Below are positions 1,778 to 54,830 of a stretch of 64,000 bases of DNA, piece by piece; position 1 is the first letter of the stretch, and every line of letters starts with the position of its first letter. Location of the stretch: the NCBI RefSeq assembly GCF_000422845.1, contig NZ_KE383931.1, positions 625,366 to 689,365 on the forward strand. The letters run 5' to 3'. The notes under the pieces were generated by a model. It was not told the DNA's origin. It did not search any database and saw only the letters and a list, made by a program, of their open reading frames with translations. A program made the position numbers and the translations under genes. The stretch is from Oceanobacter kriegii DSM 6294. GTDB taxonomy: Bacteria > Pseudomonadota > Gammaproteobacteria > Pseudomonadales > Oceanobacteraceae.

Positions 1778-2332
1778 ATGGAAAAACCCAACTTCGCCAC
1801 ACTTGGCCAAAACCTGCAATCACTGCGGTTGGCTCAAGGCTTATCGCTGTCGCAGCTGGCTGCTAATGCCGGTATCGCCAAGTCCAACTTGTCGCGCATC
1901 GAACAAGGGGAAGGCAACCCCACCATTGAAACCATCTGGCGGCTGGCGATGCAGCTGAATGTGCCGTTCAGCGATTTGATCGCAAGGGCCGACATGGCCT
2001 GGGGAGAAAACGGCGTTCAGGTGCGATTGATTGATCAGGGCACGGATAACCCGCGGGTGGATGTGTATTGGATGTATTGTGCACCTCACAGTGTGCGGGA
2101 GTCTGAACCCCACTTTGCCGGTACGGTGGAGTCCGTGACCATGGTCAGCGGCGAGGTGAATGCGGGCAACACCGGCGAATTACAAACCCTGCGCGCGGGC
2201 GACACCTACACTTTTGACGCCTCGCGGCCGCACAAATACCAGACCGACGAACTGTGGGCGACCATGATGGTGGTGGTCACCTACCCGAAAAACGAGCGGC
2301 AACCGGCCCCTCTAACGAGCGATAGCGAATGA
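1778..2332 (+). CDS. XRE-family HTH regulator with C-terminal cupin domain
   Basis: A 184-residue transcription factor. Residues about 8-62 are a Cro/C1-type helix-turn-helix (LRLAQGLSLSQLAANAGIAKSNLSRIEQGEGNPTIETIWRLA). Residues about 100-175 form a small beta-rich cupin (ESVTMVSGEVNAG, LRAGDTYTFDASRPHKYQT) that in such regulators senses a small ligand. AAAGG precedes the ATG by a suitable distance. The stop overlaps the azlC start (ATGA), so regulator and exporter are translationally coupled. In this family the regulator next to azlCD usually controls amino-acid export. That it represses through the GTTC/GAAC sites at 1691-1725 is inferred from position only. Confidence 0.88.
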   Translation: MEKPNFATLGQNLQSLRLAQGLSLSQLAANAGIAKSNLSRIEQGEGNPTIETIWRLAMQLNVPFSDLIARADMAWGENGVQVRLIDQGTDNPRVDVYWMYCAPHSVRESEPHFAGTVESVTMVSGEVNAGNTGELQTLRAGDTYTFDASRPHKYQTDELWATMMVVVTYPKNERQPAPLTSDSE

Positions 2333-3072
2333 ACATATCCGAAGCAACGCCGCCGGGTTCCGCCTGGAAGCAAGGGCTGAAAGACGCACTGCCCCTGTTG
2401 GGCGCATATATCCCCATCGCGATTTCGTTTGGTTTGATTTCCATTCAGTCCGGCTTTGGCGTACTGGAAACCATTTTAATCTCGGTATTTATTTACGCTG
2501 GCGCGTCGCAGTTTTTGTTTGTGGCAATGGTCGCCTCCGGTTCGCCTTTATGGTTGGTGGTGATCATGACCTTGCTGATCAACGCCCGCCATGTGCTGTA
2601 CGCACCGAATATCACAGCGTATCTGGGCACCGACAAACGCTGGATTCCGTTGATGCATTGTTTAACCGACCAGATTTTCGCGCTGTCGCTGACCATTTTG
2701 CCGAAGCTTGCGCCGCAAGATCGTATGGCCTGGTACACCAGTGCGGCGCTGCTGGCCTGGTTCAGCTGGATTGCCGGCACTGCGATTGGTGCTATCGCCG
2801 GCGACGAGTTGACCCAGCGCTGGCCGTTAATTAACGACGTGCTGCCGTTTGCCCTGCCCGCGCTGTTTTTGGTGCTGGTTGCCCCACGCTGTACCAACCT
2901 CGTATGGACTGCGGCTTTGGCCTGCGCCGCGGTGCTGGCATTGGTGGTGAAGTTGCTGGGCTATCCGAATGTGGCCATTCCGCTGGCCGCCATCGCTGGC
3001 GCCCTGGTGTTCCACGCGATGAAGCCTCGCCTGCCATCAGACGATGCTCAGCCGACGGAGGCAAAACCATGA
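2329..3072 (+). CDS. azlC: AzlC family branched-chain amino-acid exporter, large subunit
   Basis: A 247-residue polytopic inner-membrane protein with the AzlC/YgaZ pattern: GAYIPIAISFGLIS in the first helix, YAGASQFLFVAM in the next, then LLINARHVLYA, and a run of hydrophobic helices to about residue 235. Together with the small AzlD partner it forms an exporter, known for valine/branched-chain or azaleucine efflux in other bacteria. The start overlaps the regulator's stop by four bases and its stop overlaps azlD by four bases, making a tightly coupled three-gene operon. Substrate specificity cannot be read from the sequence. Confidence 0.92.
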   Translation: MNISEATPPGSAWKQGLKDALPLLGAYIPIAISFGLISIQSGFGVLETILISVFIYAGASQFLFVAMVASGSPLWLVVIMTLLINARHVLYAPNITAYLGTDKRWIPLMHCLTDQIFALSLTILPKLAPQDRMAWYTSAALLAWFSWIAGTAIGAIAGDELTQRWPLINDVLPFALPALFLVLVAPRCTNLVWTAALACAAVLALVVKLLGYPNVAIPLAAIAGALVFHAMKPRLPSDDAQPTEAKP

Positions 3073-3407
3073 GTACAGAGATTTGGCTAACGCTGGTGAG
3101 CATTGCCGTCGGCACTTACCTGATTCGTGTGGTGCCGTATGTGTGGATGCAGCGCAAACAGGCGCGCAGCCACAACGAAGGCATGATGGCCGATACGCCC
3201 GACTGGCTGACGGTGATGGGGCCTGCAATGATTGCCGCCATGTTTGGCACTTCGCTGGTGCCTGCACACCCGACGCCGTTGGCGTGGATCGCCAGTGCGG
3301 TGGGCATCATCGCCACCTTGTTGGTGTGGCGCAAAACCCGTTCCATGGGGGTGCCCACGTTTGTTGGCGTGTTGGTGTTTGGGCTGGTCGAAGTGGTATT
3401 TCGCTAG
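3069..3407 (+). CDS. azlD: AzlD family branched-chain amino-acid exporter, small subunit
   Basis: A 112-residue membrane protein, the normal size of AzlD/YgaH. It has an N-terminal helix (IWLTLVSIAVGTYLIRVVPYV), a central helix around VMGPAMIAAMFGTSLV, and two short C-terminal helices (AWIASAVGIIATLLVWR and VPTFVGVLVFGLVEVVF). The start is the ATG that overlaps the azlC stop (ATGA); a longer upstream reading in the same frame is only the shadow of azlC. It is the obligate partner of AzlC. Downstream lie REP-like palindromes rather than a clear intrinsic terminator. Confidence 0.9.
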   Translation: MSTEIWLTLVSIAVGTYLIRVVPYVWMQRKQARSHNEGMMADTPDWLTVMGPAMIAAMFGTSLVPAHPTPLAWIASAVGIIATLLVWRKTRSMGVPTFVGVLVFGLVEVVFR

Positions 3408-3457
3408 CCCCATCCGTTGGCCGAATTGAATTGCCCACCTTGCGCAATAGCCAACCA

Positions 3458-3481
3458 TCGCAGGCAAGCCTGCTCCTACAG
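3458..3481 (-). repeat. REP-like element, copy 1
   Basis: A 24-base element containing an imperfect palindrome (AGCAGGCTTGCCTGC core) with the head CTGTAGG. It is identical, in inverted orientation, to the copy at 49165-49188. Its form matches the extragenic palindromes with GTAGGAGC heads seen in pseudomonads. It sits just after azlD. Confidence 0.75.
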
Positions 3482-3492
3482 GGGTTATTACT

Positions 3493-3579
3493 GTAGGTCG
3501 GATAAGCTTGCGCCATCCGACAAGGGAGCGGTCAGAAACACGTCAGATGGCACCCGCTTCGCGTTTTTATCTGACCTAC
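3493..3579. repeat. paired REP-like palindromes (BIME-like)
   Basis: Two hairpins face each other. The first is GTAGGTCGGAT...ATCCGAC at 3493-3521. The second is GTCAGAT...ATCTGACCTAC at 3542-3579. The outer GTAGGTC and GACCTAC ends are inverted copies, so the whole block can fold as one long cruciform. This is the layout of bacterial interspersed mosaic elements. It has a different sequence from the neighbouring REP at 3458. Confidence 0.65.
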
Positions 3580-3596
3580 GGGGATAGCGAATATCA

Positions 3597-3815
3597 TTAT
3601 TCCCCGGCCAATACGATCTTGTATTGCTCGCCGAAGATTTCGATGACGTCGCCGTTGAGGATTTTCTTGCGCTTCTGGGTTTCCAGCTCGCCGTTCAACA
3701 GCACTTCGCCGTTTTCGATCATCAGCTTGGCTTCACCACCACTGGAGGCAATATTTTCGAATTTGAGGATTTTGAACAGTTCAACCGGCTCGCGGGTGAT
3801 GATGATGTCTTGCAT
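3597..3815 (-). CDS. RNA-binding S4-domain protein (YbcJ-like)
   Basis: A 72-residue protein consisting almost wholly of one S4 RNA-binding fold. It reads EPVELFKILKFENIASSGGEAKLMIENGEVLLNGE followed by RKKILNGDVIEIFGEQYKIV. The 'SGGEAK-x-x-I-x-x-G-x-V-x-VNG' signature is that of the YbcJ/YaaA-type single-domain S4 proteins thought to bind structured RNA. The start at 3815 (MQDIIITREP) was chosen over an upstream ATG at 3848 because family members begin here and GGA lies upstream. The 13-bp tandem repeat at 3852-3903 lies directly ahead of the gene. Confidence 0.82.
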   Translation of the reverse strand: MQDIIITREPVELFKILKFENIASSGGEAKLMIENGEVLLNGELETQKRKKILNGDVIEIFGEQYKIVLAGE

Positions 3816-3851
3816 GGGGTATCCATTAGAAAATTGGTGGCAGCGCAATGT

Positions 3852-3903
3852 CGTGACGAATACTCGTGACGAATACTCGTGGTGAATAGACGTGGCGAAT
3901 AGC
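3852..3903. repeat. 13-bp tandem repeat, four copies
   Basis: Units at 3852-3864 and 3865-3877 are identical (CGTGACGAATACT). Units at 3878-3890 and 3891-3903 are diverged (CGTGGTGAATAGA and CGTGGCGAATAGC). The array lies 37 bp upstream of the S4-domain gene start, in its likely leader or promoter. Confidence 0.85.
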
Positions 3904-4014
3904 AGAGGTTTGGCCCTCAGAAGAAGTCGGGCTGCCCTGAATAAGCGGGATGATAGCAGCTAAATGCGGGAACCCGCGCGGCTGTTTTGTGGTTAGCTGT
4001 TAAACGGCAGGCAT

Positions 4015-10806: not shown

Positions 10807-13382
10807 GCCGGCTCAAGCGCCGTCGCTGGCGCAATCGGCTGGAGGCACTGAAACGTGCCATCCCGACCGCGATACACACGTTAGCCAATAGTCGTTTGAC
10901 TGCCATCGGCAGGCATCTGGGTCAACGCTCTGGCCGCAGAGTCGCCCATGTATGCCGCATTCTGTGGCGCAGACTGTGGGTAAAGACGGCGTGTATTGGC
11001 CTCATGGCGATCATGGTCAGCCTGTGGGTTCTCGACCGCTGTTATCCGGTCGGGCCACGGGTACAGGCCGTAATGGACAGTGCCAATCAAGCCAACTCAC
11101 AACGACAACCAAACAACCTGCAAGACCTTGCCCAGGACTTCGCACAAGTCGTGACCGACCGCTACGGCCGCATGCTGCGTGCTTTCCCCGATCAACAAGG
11201 CGTGTGGCGCTATCCCACCAGCCACGCCCAGGTAGACCAGCGTTATCAACAGGCCTTGCTGAGTTACGAAGACCAGTGGTTCTACTATCATCCGGGGGTT
11301 AATCCACTGGCGCTGATGCGCGCGGCCTGGCAAAACTGGCGCTGCGACTGTGTGGTTTCCGGTGGTTCCACCATCACCATGCAAGTGGCCCGAATTCTTT
11401 ATCCACACCCGCGCACACTGGCGGGCAAAGCCCGACAAATGGCCCGCGCCCTGCAGCTGGAATGGCATTTGAGCAAGTCACAGATTCTCGACTTGTATCT
11501 GAACTACGCGCCAATGGGCGGCGTGATTGAAGGGGTCGAAGCGGCGGCGCAAACCTACCTCGATAAATCCGCAGCTGAGCTGTCGTTGGCAGAATCCGCA
11601 TTACTGGCCGTATTGCCTCAGGCACCCTCACGCTTACGCCCCGACCGTCACCCGCAGCGGGCCAAGGCCGCCCGCGACAAGGTCATAAAACGGCTGTCAG
11701 GTAACGGCATAATTACCGCTCAGGAAGCCGAACTGGCCTTGATGGAGCCGGTGCTGGCACTCAAGCCCGGCGTCCCTCAGCACGCGCCATTGCTGGCCAG
11801 ACGTTTGGTGCAGCAACAGCCCCAGCAGGCGGTTATTCAAACCAGCCTCGACCTCGACGTGCAAATGGAAGTGGCCGACCTGCTGAAGCGCTATGTTCAG
11901 CCACTGCCAGACCATCATTCCGGAGCCGTGCTGGTGTTGGAAAACAGCACCAATCAGGTAGCGGCCTACGCTGGCACCGCCGATTTTGGCAATGCGGCAC
12001 GTTGGGGGCATGTGGATATGGTGACCGCCGTCCGCTCTCCCGGCTCAACCATGAAGCCGTTTATCTACGGCCTGGCACTGGACCGTGGCATCATTCACGG
12101 AGCCAGCCTGCTCAGCGATGTACCAAGGCTGAGAGAAGATTACCAACCCGGTAACTTTTCCAACGGCTTCTTTGGCCCAGTCACCCCGCGTCAGGCGCTG
12201 CATCAGTCATTGAATCTGCCAGCGGTGCAAGTGTTGGAACAACTGGGTAGCCAGGTGTTTCACACCGCCATTCGTAACGCAGGTGCCAATTACCGTATTC
12301 CCGGTGACGGCAAAGCCAACCTGTCGTTGGCACTGGGCGGTGGCGGTGTGCGTCTGGAAGATCTGGTGATGCTCTATCACGGCTTGATGAATCAGGGGCA
12401 AACCCAACCCATTCAATACCTGCTACCGTCTCAGCAGCGACTTAAACACCAACACCAAACACAAACATCAGCTCAGACTCCGGCCAGCCATTGGCTGCTG
12501 TCCCCTGAAGCCGCCTGGGTTACCGCCGAGCTGATACACAACCCGCTGCCCTCTCGAACCCGCAGCATCGACGTCGCCGTGAATCGCCCGTTCGGCTGGA
12601 AAACCGGCACCAGTTATGGCTTTCGTGACGCCTGGGCCATCGGTGTTTCTGAAAAGTACACCATTGGCGTCTGGCTTGGCCGACCGGATGGCACCCCATC
12701 ACCGGGGTACTTTGGCGGCGTAACGGCATTGCCACTGCTGGAACAGGTTTTCCGCATGGTCGACCGACAACCCGGCTGGCCTGCGGCACCCGCCGACGTT
12801 GAACAAGCCACCGTCTGCTGGCCACTAGGACGACGTCAAAGCGAGACCGACCAAGCCTCCTGCCATCAAACCCGACAAGGTTGGATTGTTCGTGGTCAGG
12901 TACCGCCTACCCTGCCCGACGCCCATCGCCCCTACACCCAGAACCCAATGATCGTGAGCCTGAACGCCGACGGCAAGCTGATTCAGCCGGGCTGTGGCGG
13001 CCCCCGCGCCAGCAGTGTCAAACTGGCGCTGTGGCCACTGATGCTGGAGCCCTGGGTAAACCGCAAACACCGCTACCAGAACCAGATTCCAGCGCTGGCC
13101 GACGACTGCAAATCCCAGGTCGCCATAGAACAGCCGCTGCAAATCATCGGCGCAGAACCCGACAGTCACCTGTTGGCGGTCAATGCTCAACGCTCGCCCG
13201 AAATGACCTTGGGCAGCCAAGGTGGATTAGGTGCTCGACACTGGTTTCTGAACGGCCAATTTGTCGCCAGCACGGGGGCCGAGCAAACCCTGAACATCCA
13301 ACTGCAACGACCGGGCAAACAACAGCTGATGCTGGTAGACGATCAGGGCAACAGTGACTGGGTCAGCTTCTGGTGGGATTGA
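10803..13382 (+). CDS. pbpC: penicillin-binding protein 1C
   Basis: An 859-residue bifunctional murein synthase. A basic N-terminus leads to one membrane helix (about residues 62-80, ACIGLMAIMVSLWVL). The glycosyltransferase domain then shows EDQWFYYHPGVNP, GGSTITMQVAR and the LSKSQILDLYLN block. The transpeptidase domain has the SxxK site in SPGSTMKP, SLN, and KTGTSYGFRDAW. The C-terminal about 90 residues match the BiPBP_C beta domain typical of PBP1C. An in-frame stop lies just upstream, so translation must begin at the TTG that overlaps the stop of the macroglobulin gene (TTGA) or later. This coupling matches the common yfhM-pbpC pair. Confidence 0.95.
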   Translation: MSRLKRRRWRNRLEALKRAIPTAIHTLANSRLTAIGRHLGQRSGRRVAHVCRILWRRLWVKTACIGLMAIMVSLWVLDRCYPVGPRVQAVMDSANQANSQRQPNNLQDLAQDFAQVVTDRYGRMLRAFPDQQGVWRYPTSHAQVDQRYQQALLSYEDQWFYYHPGVNPLALMRAAWQNWRCDCVVSGGSTITMQVARILYPHPRTLAGKARQMARALQLEWHLSKSQILDLYLNYAPMGGVIEGVEAAAQTYLDKSAAELSLAESALLAVLPQAPSRLRPDRHPQRAKAARDKVIKRLSGNGIITAQEAELALMEPVLALKPGVPQHAPLLARRLVQQQPQQAVIQTSLDLDVQMEVADLLKRYVQPLPDHHSGAVLVLENSTNQVAAYAGTADFGNAARWGHVDMVTAVRSPGSTMKPFIYGLALDRGIIHGASLLSDVPRLREDYQPGNFSNGFFGPVTPRQALHQSLNLPAVQVLEQLGSQVFHTAIRNAGANYRIPGDGKANLSLALGGGGVRLEDLVMLYHGLMNQGQTQPIQYLLPSQQRLKHQHQTQTSAQTPASHWLLSPEAAWVTAELIHNPLPSRTRSIDVAVNRPFGWKTGTSYGFRDAWAIGVSEKYTIGVWLGRPDGTPSPGYFGGVTALPLLEQVFRMVDRQPGWPAAPADVEQATVCWPLGRRQSETDQASCHQTRQGWIVRGQVPPTLPDAHRPYTQNPMIVSLNADGKLIQPGCGGPRASSVKLALWPLMLEPWVNRKHRYQNQIPALADDCKSQVAIEQPLQIIGAEPDSHLLAVNAQRSPEMTLGSQGGLGARHWFLNGQFVASTGAEQTLNIQLQRPGKQQLMLVDDQGNSDWVSFWWD

Positions 13383-52049: not shown

Positions 52050-52205
52050 TCGGTTTTCCTTATTTAGACAGCCACAACGAGCAGAACCACAACCCTTCCA
52101 GCATCAAACACACTCGCCTGACCATCATTGACTGGCCGCAAAAGAGGTGCTGGTGAGCGTCATTTTGGGTAAAGTTTGCGCGCTCATATTACAGGTTGGA
52201 TTCCC

Positions 52206-52985
52206 TTGCTAGAAATTCTTTATAAAGACGAGTACCTCGTCGCCATCAACAAGCCCAGTGGCCTGCTGGTGCATCGCAGCGAAATCGATCGCCATGAAAC
52301 ACGCTTTGTATTGCAACTGCTAAGAAACCAGCTGGGACAACGGGTTTACCCGGTGCACCGTCTCGACAAGCCCACCTCTGGCGTACTGGTGTTTGCACTG
52401 TCGAGTGAAATGGCCAGCCTGATTGTCGACCAGTGGCGCGAACGGGAAGTCGAGAAACGCTATCTGGCGATTACCCGTGGCTACATGCCGGAGCACATCC
52501 ATCTGGACTACGCCATGAAGCCTCCTGTCGACAAATACGCCAAGCACGAAGTCGACAAGCCAGCCCAGGAAGCCATCACCGACTTTTACCTGAAAGCCAC
52601 GGTGGAAATTCCGGTCGAAATCGACAAGTACCCTCAGTCCCGCTATTCGCTGGTTGAGGCTGTGCCCAAAACCGGCCGCAAGCATCAAATCCGTCGTCAC
52701 CTGAAGCACCTGTCTCATCCCATCATTGGTGATGCACGCTACGGCAAGGGTCGCCACAGTCGCTACTTCCGTGATCACTTCGATGCTGGCCGTTTGTTGC
52801 TACACGCCTGGCAGTTACAGATGCAACATCCTGTTACTAACGAAACGCTCACCTTTGTGGCCCCTCTCGACCCTATCTGGAACCGCCTGATCGTTCGTTT
52901 TGGCTGGCAACAACAGCTGCCTGAGGCGTTGCATCAGGAAGACAACCAACATCCCTCAGAAGACTGCTCTGTGACGGGGCAATAA
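52206..52985 (+). CDS. truC: tRNA pseudouridine-65 synthase TruC
   Basis: A 259-residue RluA-family enzyme that converts U65 of some tRNAs to pseudouridine. It shows LEILYKDEYLVAINKPSGLLVHRS, the catalytic Asp in VHRLDKPTSGVLVFAL, EKRYLAITRGY, and the RluA closing blocks TGRKHQIRRHLKHLSHPIIGDARYGKG and LLLHAWQLQ. TruC of E. coli starts MLEILYQD; here the equivalent start is a TTG at 52206 with GGA upstream, so the reading frame's extra upstream residues are not used. An AT-rich region with DnaA boxes follows. Confidence 0.93.
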   Translation: MLEILYKDEYLVAINKPSGLLVHRSEIDRHETRFVLQLLRNQLGQRVYPVHRLDKPTSGVLVFALSSEMASLIVDQWREREVEKRYLAITRGYMPEHIHLDYAMKPPVDKYAKHEVDKPAQEAITDFYLKATVEIPVEIDKYPQSRYSLVEAVPKTGRKHQIRRHLKHLSHPIIGDARYGKGRHSRYFRDHFDAGRLLLHAWQLQMQHPVTNETLTFVAPLDPIWNRLIVRFGWQQQLPEALHQEDNQHPSEDCSVTGQ

Positions 52986-53021: not shown

Positions 53022-53761
53022 GGTGGATAACTTTTCACCAATTCACGTCAACTTCCCTGCCGAAGGCAATTTTTTTCGATTTAACCGCATTTTTGCCCGC
53101 AAATTCCGATTTTTACCCTTGACTCAGGGTTACCCACAGATTCTGTGGATAAATTTGGGCATAAATTATTCAAAAGTGCCGCAAAGCCGCATTATTACTG
53201 GCTTTCTGACGGATTGGTCGGTTTTGCACCAGATTGATTTTTCCTTATTTTTCAATAACTTATAAAATATTCAAGTATTTTAGAGCAGTCTATTGACAAA
53301 TCTCTAGCGAGCAAATTTTCACTTTACAGCGATGTGAATAACGCCTGGCTGATATTATTTTTTCATCTTTCACGCAAAAGATTGCAGTCAAGACTTGCAG
53401 GAAAAAATTTTTCCAATTTCCGCCATCGGGATCAACAAAGCGGTGCAAATGCTCTGTGGATAATTCGGGGGACAAGAATCTGCGCCAGCCAGAAGTTTAT
53501 TGCACACTTGTTAAACAATCCTGAACGCGTCAGATTCTTATCAAAAACAGTTTAAAAAACAGCCACTTGACGAATTATTAACCAAAGGTGCAAATGCCAC
53601 TTTGTTACAAATGAGAAATCGATCAAAAGTTGGACTGTGAATAATTGACTCGCCCTGACTCATACCATGGTATGTAAGGACGAATTTTCGGGCTGCACCG
53701 ATCTGAAACAGCGCTGAATTTTGCCCACAGCCTTCAGTTAATCCACAGATTCTGTGGATAA
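53022..53761. other. AT-rich non-coding region with a cluster of DnaA boxes
   Basis: Five sites of form TGTG(G/A)ATAA (complement TTAT(C/T)CACA) lie at 53144-53152, 53333-53341, 53455-53463, 53636-53644 and 53753-53761, all in one orientation; three are perfect TTATCCACA. One-mismatch boxes occur at 53022-53030, 53130-53138 and 53739-53747. Two pairs form near-identical palindromes (53130-53152 and 53739-53761) around CAGATTCTG. A perfect palindrome CATACCATGGTATG lies at 53661-53674, and several GATC sites are present. There is no supported gene between truC and the dsbC terminator (52986-53892). This is origin-like or DnaA-titration-like architecture; see findings. Confidence 0.8.
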
Positions 53762-53892
53762 TTGTGTGCATATAGCCTTTAAAAACGCTTCAGACCCAAG
53801 CGATCTCTATCCCTCCCTTTGTTTGTCTATTTTTTAACCAATTCGTCATTTTCGGCGGTTTCCAAAATGGCTTTGGAGGGTTTCTTACAGAC

Positions 53893-53918
53893 AACAAAAA
53901 ACCCGCCGTGGCGGGTTT
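53893..53918 (-). terminator. intrinsic terminator after dsbC
   Basis: AACCCGCC and GGCGGGTT form an 8-bp stem with a two-base loop (53900-53917). The A-run on its left gives the U-run for minus-strand transcripts leaving dsbC. Confidence 0.85.
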
Positions 53919-53981
53919 CTCTGACAGGGTTCAATACACCCGTGTTATCACAGCGACAACAAGGGCACATCGCGGGTTCTG

Positions 53982-54830
53982 TTACAAAACACCGAGCGCC
54001 TTGGCCATCTCTTTGGCCGGCATATAACCCGGGTACAACTGACCGTCTTCGGTGAAGATGGCGGGTGTGCCATTGACGCCCAGCTGCTGGCCCAGTTGAT
54101 ACTGTTGCGCTACCGGCGTGGCACAACCGTTACCCGCCTGCATGTTGCTGACCAGCGTCTGTTGCAGCTTTTCAACCTTGCCCTGCAGCGCGCTGTTACC
54201 AGCGCGCAACTGGCGACCCAGGCTGTTCAACTGCTGTTGGTCGGTTTTCATTTCGGTCATAGCCGCTGCACGGTCGTCCTGACACCAAACGTAGTTGATC
54301 TTCTGGTAAGACTGGGTCGGTTGGCCGGTCTGACGATCAACAATGCCGGAACGAGGATACGCCAGGTAGCGCACCGTAATACCCAGATCATTCAGCTCAT
54401 CGACTTCCTGATGCAGCTTCTGACAGTAACCACAGTCAATATCGGTGAATACGTTGATCAATGCCTTCTGATCACCCTTGGCTTCAAACACCACGGTCTG
54501 ATCATTTGCCACGGCAGCCAGGGCTTTGGCGCGCTTAGGATTCAATCGAGCCTCAGTCACGTTCACAGCGCTGCCACCGTCGATACGAATCACTTCGTCA
54601 CGATAGATCAGGTGGCTGGCGTCTGGCGTCATGTAGAGGAAGGGGCCGCTTTCCATGGTGACTTCCAGAATCTGGCCATTGGCGATCAGATTGGCTTCAG
54701 CCACCTTGATGTGTTCACCGTAGATGGTTTGCAAACGGGCTTCCGCCACGTCGCTGATATCTTCTGCAGAAGCCCCCAGGGGCAGCATAGCCAAGCCGGA
54801 TACCAGGCTGGCTAACATCAATTTTTTCAT
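53982..54830 (-). CDS. dsbC: thiol:disulfide isomerase DsbC
   Basis: A 282-residue periplasmic protein with a signal peptide (MKKLMLASLVSGLAMLPLGASA). It has an N-terminal dimerisation domain (EARLQTIYGEHIKVAEANLIANGQILEVTMESG) and a thioredoxin-like domain with the active site CGYC at residues 133-136 (FTDIDCGYCQKLHQEVDEL). The cis-Pro loop is in GVNGTPAIF. It reshuffles wrong disulfides. It is longer than the usual 235-245 residues: a charged helical insertion of about 40 residues (MTEMKTDQQQLNSLGRQLRAGNSALQGKVEKLQQ) sits in the helical part before NGCATPVAQQYQLGQQLG. AGGTAAG precedes the ATG. Confidence 0.93.
   Translation of the reverse strand: MKKLMLASLVSGLAMLPLGASAEDISDVAEARLQTIYGEHIKVAEANLIANGQILEVTMESGPFLYMTPDASHLIYRDEVIRIDGGSAVNVTEARLNPKRAKALAAVANDQTVVFEAKGDQKALINVFTDIDCGYCQKLHQEVDELNDLGITVRYLAYPRSGIVDRQTGQPTQSYQKINYVWCQDDRAAAMTEMKTDQQQLNSLGRQLRAGNSALQGKVEKLQQTLVSNMQAGNGCATPVAQQYQLGQQLGVNGTPAIFTEDGQLYPGYMPAKEMAKALGVL

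Follow-up and report, generated by a model that had tools for sequence, protein, structure and literature searches.

The DnaA-reactivating sequences (DARS) of E. coli release ADP from DnaA and thereby recharge the protein that starts replication; this recharging of DnaA is known from E. coli. A DARS core is made up of three DnaA boxes, and the opposing head-to-head pair of boxes I and II is described in parts of two publications as its characteristic feature and as essential for ADP release (PMC8682772, PMC10380432). According to a passage of the latter, a review, DARS-like sequences occur in many proteobacterial species, and the DARS2 comparison given in a section of PMC8682772 reaches Vibrio and Shewanella at the farthest. 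Here, we compare with these sites a cluster of DnaA boxes from the window, which is the whole stretch of 64,000 nucleotides of Oceanobacter kriegii DSM 6294 that was analysed (C1:625366-689365 of its genome, G000).

An exact-motif scan located five minus-strand copies of TTATNCACA in the cluster, with starts 53144, 53333, 53455, 53636 and 53753, three of which read TTATCCACA; a single further copy in the window is found at 11399. The preliminary description of this DNA had reported just such an array of five boxes in one orientation with three perfect ones, together with three one-mismatch boxes, which are present at 53022, 53130 and 53739, and a repeated palindromic segment, CCACAGATTCTGTGGATAA, whose two copies (53134 and 53743) each turn out to be part of a box triple. 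The intergenic region between truC and dsbC comprises 996 bp with 42% GC and contains five perfect TTWTNCACA boxes, compared with a mean of 0.23 in dinucleotide shuffles, none of which (0/3000) reached five. If up to one mismatch is allowed, 14 boxes are present versus a shuffle mean of 3.78 (reached in 0/1000), and oriented box triples with 14/12 spacing occur twice in the region and in none of 3000 shuffles. This comparison confirms that the DnaA-box cluster is real and exceeds the shuffled background. The features of the locus are compiled in Table 1.

Table 1. Features of the truC-dsbC locus in window coordinates; offsets with a plus sign are counted from box I of the respective core.
Feature	Position	Strand	Remarks
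truC-like pseudouridine synthase, left neighbour	52176..52985	+	points toward the array; start codon uncertain; Pfam PF00849, E 1.4e-34; adjoins the locus in 7/7 genus genomes
DARS module c1	53128..53233	+	model R1 match, 81.4 bits; own sequence part of the model
c1 DnaA box I TTACCCACA	53130..53138	+	
c1 DnaA box II TTATCCACA	53144..53152	-	head-to-head with box I
c1 DnaA box III TTATGCCCA	53156..53164	-	12 bp after box II; one mismatch to TTWTNCACA
c1 distal element ATTGGTCGGTTTTGCACCA	53213..53231	+	fixed phase +83..+101; Fis 15-mer at +86 has 3 mismatches
c1 IHF-like site TTTCAATAACTTA	53250..53262	+	at +120; one mismatch to WATCAANNNNTTR
DnaA box TTATTCACA	53333..53341	-	+203 from c1
Middle half-module: box II TTATCCACA and degenerate box III 12 bp on	53455..53475	-	box I absent; ~300 bp from either full core
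DnaA box TTATTCACA	53636..53644	-	perfect box at the matching place only in G000 and G005 among 7 genus genomes
DARS module c2	53737..53842	+	model R1 match, 73.1 bits; own sequence part of the model
c2 DnaA box I TAATCCACA	53739..53747	+	
c2 DnaA box II TTATCCACA	53753..53761	-	
c2 DnaA box III ATATGCACA	53765..53773	-	one mismatch
c2 Fis-like site GTCTATTTTTTAACC	53825..53839		at +86; zero mismatches to GNNYANNNNNTRNNC; IHF-like site absent at +118..+122
dsbC-like disulfide isomerase, right neighbour	53982..54830	-	convergent with truC; Pfam PF13098, E 4e-23; present in 7/7 genus loci

We scanned the stretches of DARS1, DARS2 and datA from E. coli for box triples alongside the window; the primer for the deletion of boxes I-III given in part of PMC4585315 reads within the DARS2 stretch that we used. 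Both triples of the window (53130/53144/53156 and 53739/53753/53765) consist of box I on the plus strand and boxes II and III on the minus strand, with starts 14 and 12 bp apart, and the cores of E. coli DARS1 and DARS2 each show the identical order of strands and the identical spacing. The locus thus contains twice a head-to-head I-II pair with box III parallel to box II at the spacing of DARS1 and DARS2. The two cores, c1 and c2, lie on the same strand 609 bp apart, with a half-core between them at 311 and 298 bp, respectively. In the entire G000 genome the exact I-II pattern occurs two times, both in this locus, and the reversed control gave 0. A DARS-type architecture is well supported by these observations, and the locus very probably represents a tandem DARS array that would regenerate ATP-DnaA, its architecture being read from the sequence and its activity assumed by analogy with E. 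coli.

We asked how far this arrangement is conserved among relatives, as the preliminary description had suggested for the truC-dsbC interval. A DNA match to the region was present in all seven genomes of the genus, and a tolerant scan found two cores between truC and dsbC in each of them. The G001 and G002 loci are identical over 3270 bp, so that these genomes amount to six independent sequences, and G001 was excluded from the model described below. A perfect TTWTNCACA box at +201..+203 from c1 is shared by 7/7 genomes and a second one at +312..+336, in the middle half-module, by 6/7 (missing in G003). The IHF-like site of c1 at +120 is preserved with at most one mismatch in 6/7 genomes, G006 having two mismatches at +119, while c2 has an IHF-like site in 0/7. 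At +86 of c2 the Fis consensus is found with zero mismatches in 3/7 and with one mismatch in 3/7 genomes; in G006, inspection by eye shows a match for the 15-mer shifted one base earlier. The Fis position of c1 carries 2-3 mismatches in 7/7 genomes. In sites of the DARS2 type, activity depends on IHF and Fis sites; as judged from the letters, consensus-like IHF and Fis sites of the window's locus are split between c1 and c2, in an order unlike that of E. coli DARS2. This split and the deviating order weigh against the DARS reading. The G000 genome encodes Fis (65% identity over 74 aa) and a DiaA homologue (56% identity), and a search of this genome for SeqA gave no PF03925 match.

In the family of the window's organism, the exact I-II pattern was detected in 20 of 44 genomes (reversed control 0), and these cores are followed by a gap-free module composed of box III, a patch of AAAA and, from +83 on, ATTGnnnnTTTTTnnACCA. 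We built from 27 sequences of 19 genomes, none of them E. coli, a sequence-only model of 105 bp (R1), which matches 44/44 family genomes at E 1e-4 or better, 25 of which had given the model no sequence; its E-values are rough, as the tool itself states. Same-strand module pairs less than 700 bp apart occur in at least 31 of the 44 genomes, with spacings of 481-633 bp in the seven genus genomes and of 242-334 bp in the other 24, among which 300-306 bp recurs. Three modules in a row are present in G027 and G009 (300 and 304 bp; 331 and 340 bp), and the middle half-module of the window fits the rhythm of such triple arrays (311 and 298 bp). Among 20 fetched places of the family, truC was found at 10, eight of which also have dsbC, the truC-linked places belonging to genera coded g3 (truC only), g6, g7 and g8; the other 10 have different neighbours. 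Separately, a further single DARS module with 37.9 bits lies beside a pfkB-type kinase gene in G000 (C10:163546-163647, L251) and likewise beside a pfkB-type gene in G002 (L252); it is perhaps a DARS1-like partner site.

Beyond the family, a match to R1 at E 0.01 or better was obtained in 240 of 274 Gammaproteobacteria and none in the remaining 34, and most of the class matches listed span nearly the full length of the model; among the same listed matches no pair less than 700 bp apart was found outside G000. Across the phylum, 132/299 have a match at E 1e-4. Of the listed matches beyond the class, many extend over the box triple alone (e.g. in the family coded f192), hinting at core-only DARS-like sites. 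Since R1 reaches to about +104, its matches favour the distal element, and not the IHF position at +120, which lies beyond the model. At this position (+119..+122), 28 of the 29 class modules with the highest scores have an IHF-like site; of the same 29 loci, 19 have a strict Fis match at +85..+87 and 18 have both, against a per-offset background of 0.13 for IHF-like and 0.10 for Fis sites. We further selected cores by the I-II pattern only from named genomes outside the family (8/119 named stretches were excluded as members of the window's family), which yielded 112 cores, 109 of them with room to the contig end. In 66 of the 109, the best fit of the downstream part is at the expected phase, and in 80 this phase ranks third or better among 61 shifts; the best fit of 43 lies elsewhere. 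IHF-like sites in these 109 cores peak at +121 (39), +120 (14) and +119 (11), the mean being 0.35 per offset. As about 40 of the 109 cores stem from close relatives (one cluster of 43), these raw counts overstate independence; collapsed to 39 clusters, the IHF-like site is found in 16, compared to 0-3 in 22 control windows, and 23 clusters are without it. The Fis signal at +86 is weaker in this set (11/109), in which further Fis peaks stand at -34 and +142. The 34 class genomes without a match, the 43 cores with a best fit elsewhere and the 23 clusters lacking the IHF-like site count against the DARS reading.

Strict Fis matches pile up at -34 (35/111) and +142 (31/109) from box I in L124 and other Marinobacter loci and are possibly lineage-specific Fis sites. 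In Rheinheimera (L136, L143 and relatives) an IHF-consensus-like GATCAATAGGTTT at +83 replaces the Fis-like element. The exact 23-bp pattern also occurs in a record of the actinobacterium Flexivirga caeni (L154), where the downstream module is missing, by chance or by contamination.

A cluster of DnaA boxes may also lower ATP-DnaA, either as a datA-like site promoting hydrolysis of DnaA-bound ATP (DDAH) or by plain titration of DnaA. Like datA, the locus combines DnaA boxes with an IHF-like site in non-coding DNA; the DnaA box at 53333 and the IHF-like site at 53250 are oriented to each other as a datA box is to its IHF site, at about 79 versus 65 bp, and any cluster of 5-14 boxes titrates DnaA too. 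The same scan, however, revealed no head-to-head 14/12 triple in the datA stretch, and R1, built without E. coli letters, scored at most 11.3 bits there, compared with 16.5 bits for DARS2 and 25.2 bits for DARS1. Moreover, datA requires its boxes 2 and 3 as well as the distance between these and the IHF site, and it is close to oriC in E. coli strains, as stated in parts of PMC4585315, whereas the array lies mid-arm, 25.3% (G002), 26.6% (G020) and 27.8% (G037) of the chromosome away from dnaA. The likeness to datA seen in the preliminary description was therefore a close one, but DARS fits better, and we regard a datA-like or purely titrating function as improbable. Its broader suggestion that a DnaA-regulating site was a live alternative to an origin is borne out, DARS itself not having been named.

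Even less probable is a DnaA-regulated promoter or small RNA locus. DnaA regulates promoters via double boxes 2-3 bp apart, according to part of PMC11317965, and this is the arrangement of boxes II and III. Nevertheless, truC and dsbC converge on the region and hence neither has its promoter there. We compared the four small ORFs of the region with the other genus loci: those at 53334 (plus) and 53541 (minus) lack matches better than E 1 and E 0.02, respectively, that at 53023 (plus) can be aligned across the conserved module but contains in-frame stops in two species, and that at 53290 (minus) has an alignment in a single species, which also contains stops. An Rfam scan of the region returned zero families at gathering score. 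A hidden gene or RNA was rejected because neither approach gave anything convincing, and the earlier claim of a DnaA-box cluster, with predicted DnaA binding, in gene-free DNA is supported by genus conservation, shuffles and ORF comparison. Weak sub-threshold Rfam matches (istR, P9, RsmY) at 53859-54008 lie over a hairpin after dsbC, most likely the dsbC terminator.

The cluster is not a replication origin. Many boxes, AT-rich non-coding DNA and an IHF-like site speak for the origin-like reading of the preliminary description, but GC skew in the window is negative in 31 of 32 two-kb bins, including those on both sides of the cluster (only 2001-4000 is positive), and does not switch at this site. 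Since G000 is split into 36 contigs, we sampled the skew genome-wide, as had been proposed, in G002, a genome of the same genus in one contig, where the locus at 1.106 Mb is separated by 1.1 Mb from dnaA at base 1039. All 12 samples between 0 and 1.99 Mb gave a positive skew and all 8 from 2.2 Mb onward a negative one, i.e. the skew switches at dnaA and is uniform around the cluster, which lacks the skew switch of an oriC and is, as a DARS should be, non-coding and away from oriC. The absence of dnaA from the neighbourhood was correctly noted at the outset: in G000 it is located on another contig (C2), adjoining rpmH-like sequence and with its own nearby boxes. The cores are in addition head-to-head, whereas oriC boxes are described as head-to-tail in part of PMC10380432, and a main or dormant secondary origin consequently has next to no likelihood.

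Apart from the locus, TTATNCACA is distributed very unevenly over contigs C1-C9 of G000, with 42 copies on C2 (658 kb, carrying dnaA), 19 on C6 (235 kb), 10 on C7 (226 kb), 9 on C1 (719 kb; five of them the cluster) and 2 on C3 (531 kb). Samples of C6 and C7 align to G002 0.35-0.82 Mb from dnaA and one C3 sample near 2.46 Mb. The sequence contexts of 20 inspected sites in G000 were unrelated, and the gradient in G002 itself is weaker than in G000. This distribution looks like that of DnaA titration boxes near the origin and is more pronounced than the pattern described for E. coli in PMC12371093.

For the tandem DARS array, a course of events can be proposed by analogy with E. coli. ADP-DnaA would bind each core, where the head-to-head box pair would bring two AAA+ domains into contact and thus loosen ADP; apo-DnaA would depart from the core and then bind ATP. 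Bending by IHF and Fis might switch this reactivation on at the right time, and the array would thus favour the following initiation round at oriC, far from the locus. Speculatively, the two cores together may provide a higher local capacity, or an IHF-bound and a Fis-bound core may act jointly.

A more far-reaching and rather doubtful proposal is that the DARS of most Gammaproteobacteria might follow a single ground plan, with boxes I, II and III at 0, +14 and +26, a Fis-type site at +86 and IHF at +120, that in the window's family two or three such modules, spaced by about 300 bp, would work as a tandem array whose neighbouring cores cooperate via looped DNA (here c1 with IHF and c2 with Fis), and that E. 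coli DARS2, with a second DnaA-bound half-core 316 bp away, would be a decayed array. E. coli DARS2 does contain, at a distance of 316 bp from its core, a second core-like element (L062 positions 1636 and 1952) in which box II is intact and box I has two mismatches. Table 1 of PMC11317965, in the part concerning DARS2, contains three DnaA ChIP-seq regions, and the double box of the strongest (2969501, coverage 213 versus 78 at the core) is this second element, its letters matching the L062 sequence. The right half of DARS2 was dispensable in assays reported in part of PMC4245941, which argues against an essential role of the second element in E. coli.

The tandem layout and the order of Fis followed by IHF look new; in the openly licensed literature we found no account of tandem DARS. 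With its fixed-phase IHF position, the searchable 105-bp module could be used for DARS annotation across the class and would allow DARS tests in organisms without SeqA, such as that of the window, while the tandem arrays offer a natural spacing series for testing the cooperation of cores.

When compared to the characterized E. coli sites, the locus shares with DARS1, which lies upstream of uvrB, the core spacing and an AATTGG at the offset of the distal element, and DARS1 is the best outside match of R1 (over positions 3-92); unlike the array, DARS1 has a single core and no IHF-like site in the scanned stretch. With DARS2 it has in common the core boxes, an extended regulatory region with IHF and Fis sites, which here are consensus-like, and the mid-arm position, DARS2 being located about 20.6% of the chromosome from oriC. 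The order of sites is reversed, however, as the DARS2 core is followed by IHF-like sites at +93/+109 and Fis at +145 and those of the window by a Fis-like site at +86 (c2) and an IHF-like site at +120 (c1). Furthermore, DARS2 consists of one full core and a degraded element instead of two full cores and is flanked by rppH/mutH, upstream of mutH. Because truC and dsbC flank the window's locus, we did not file it as DARS2; a DARS by its core, and not DARS2 by its neighbours and site order, it is best called a tandem variant.
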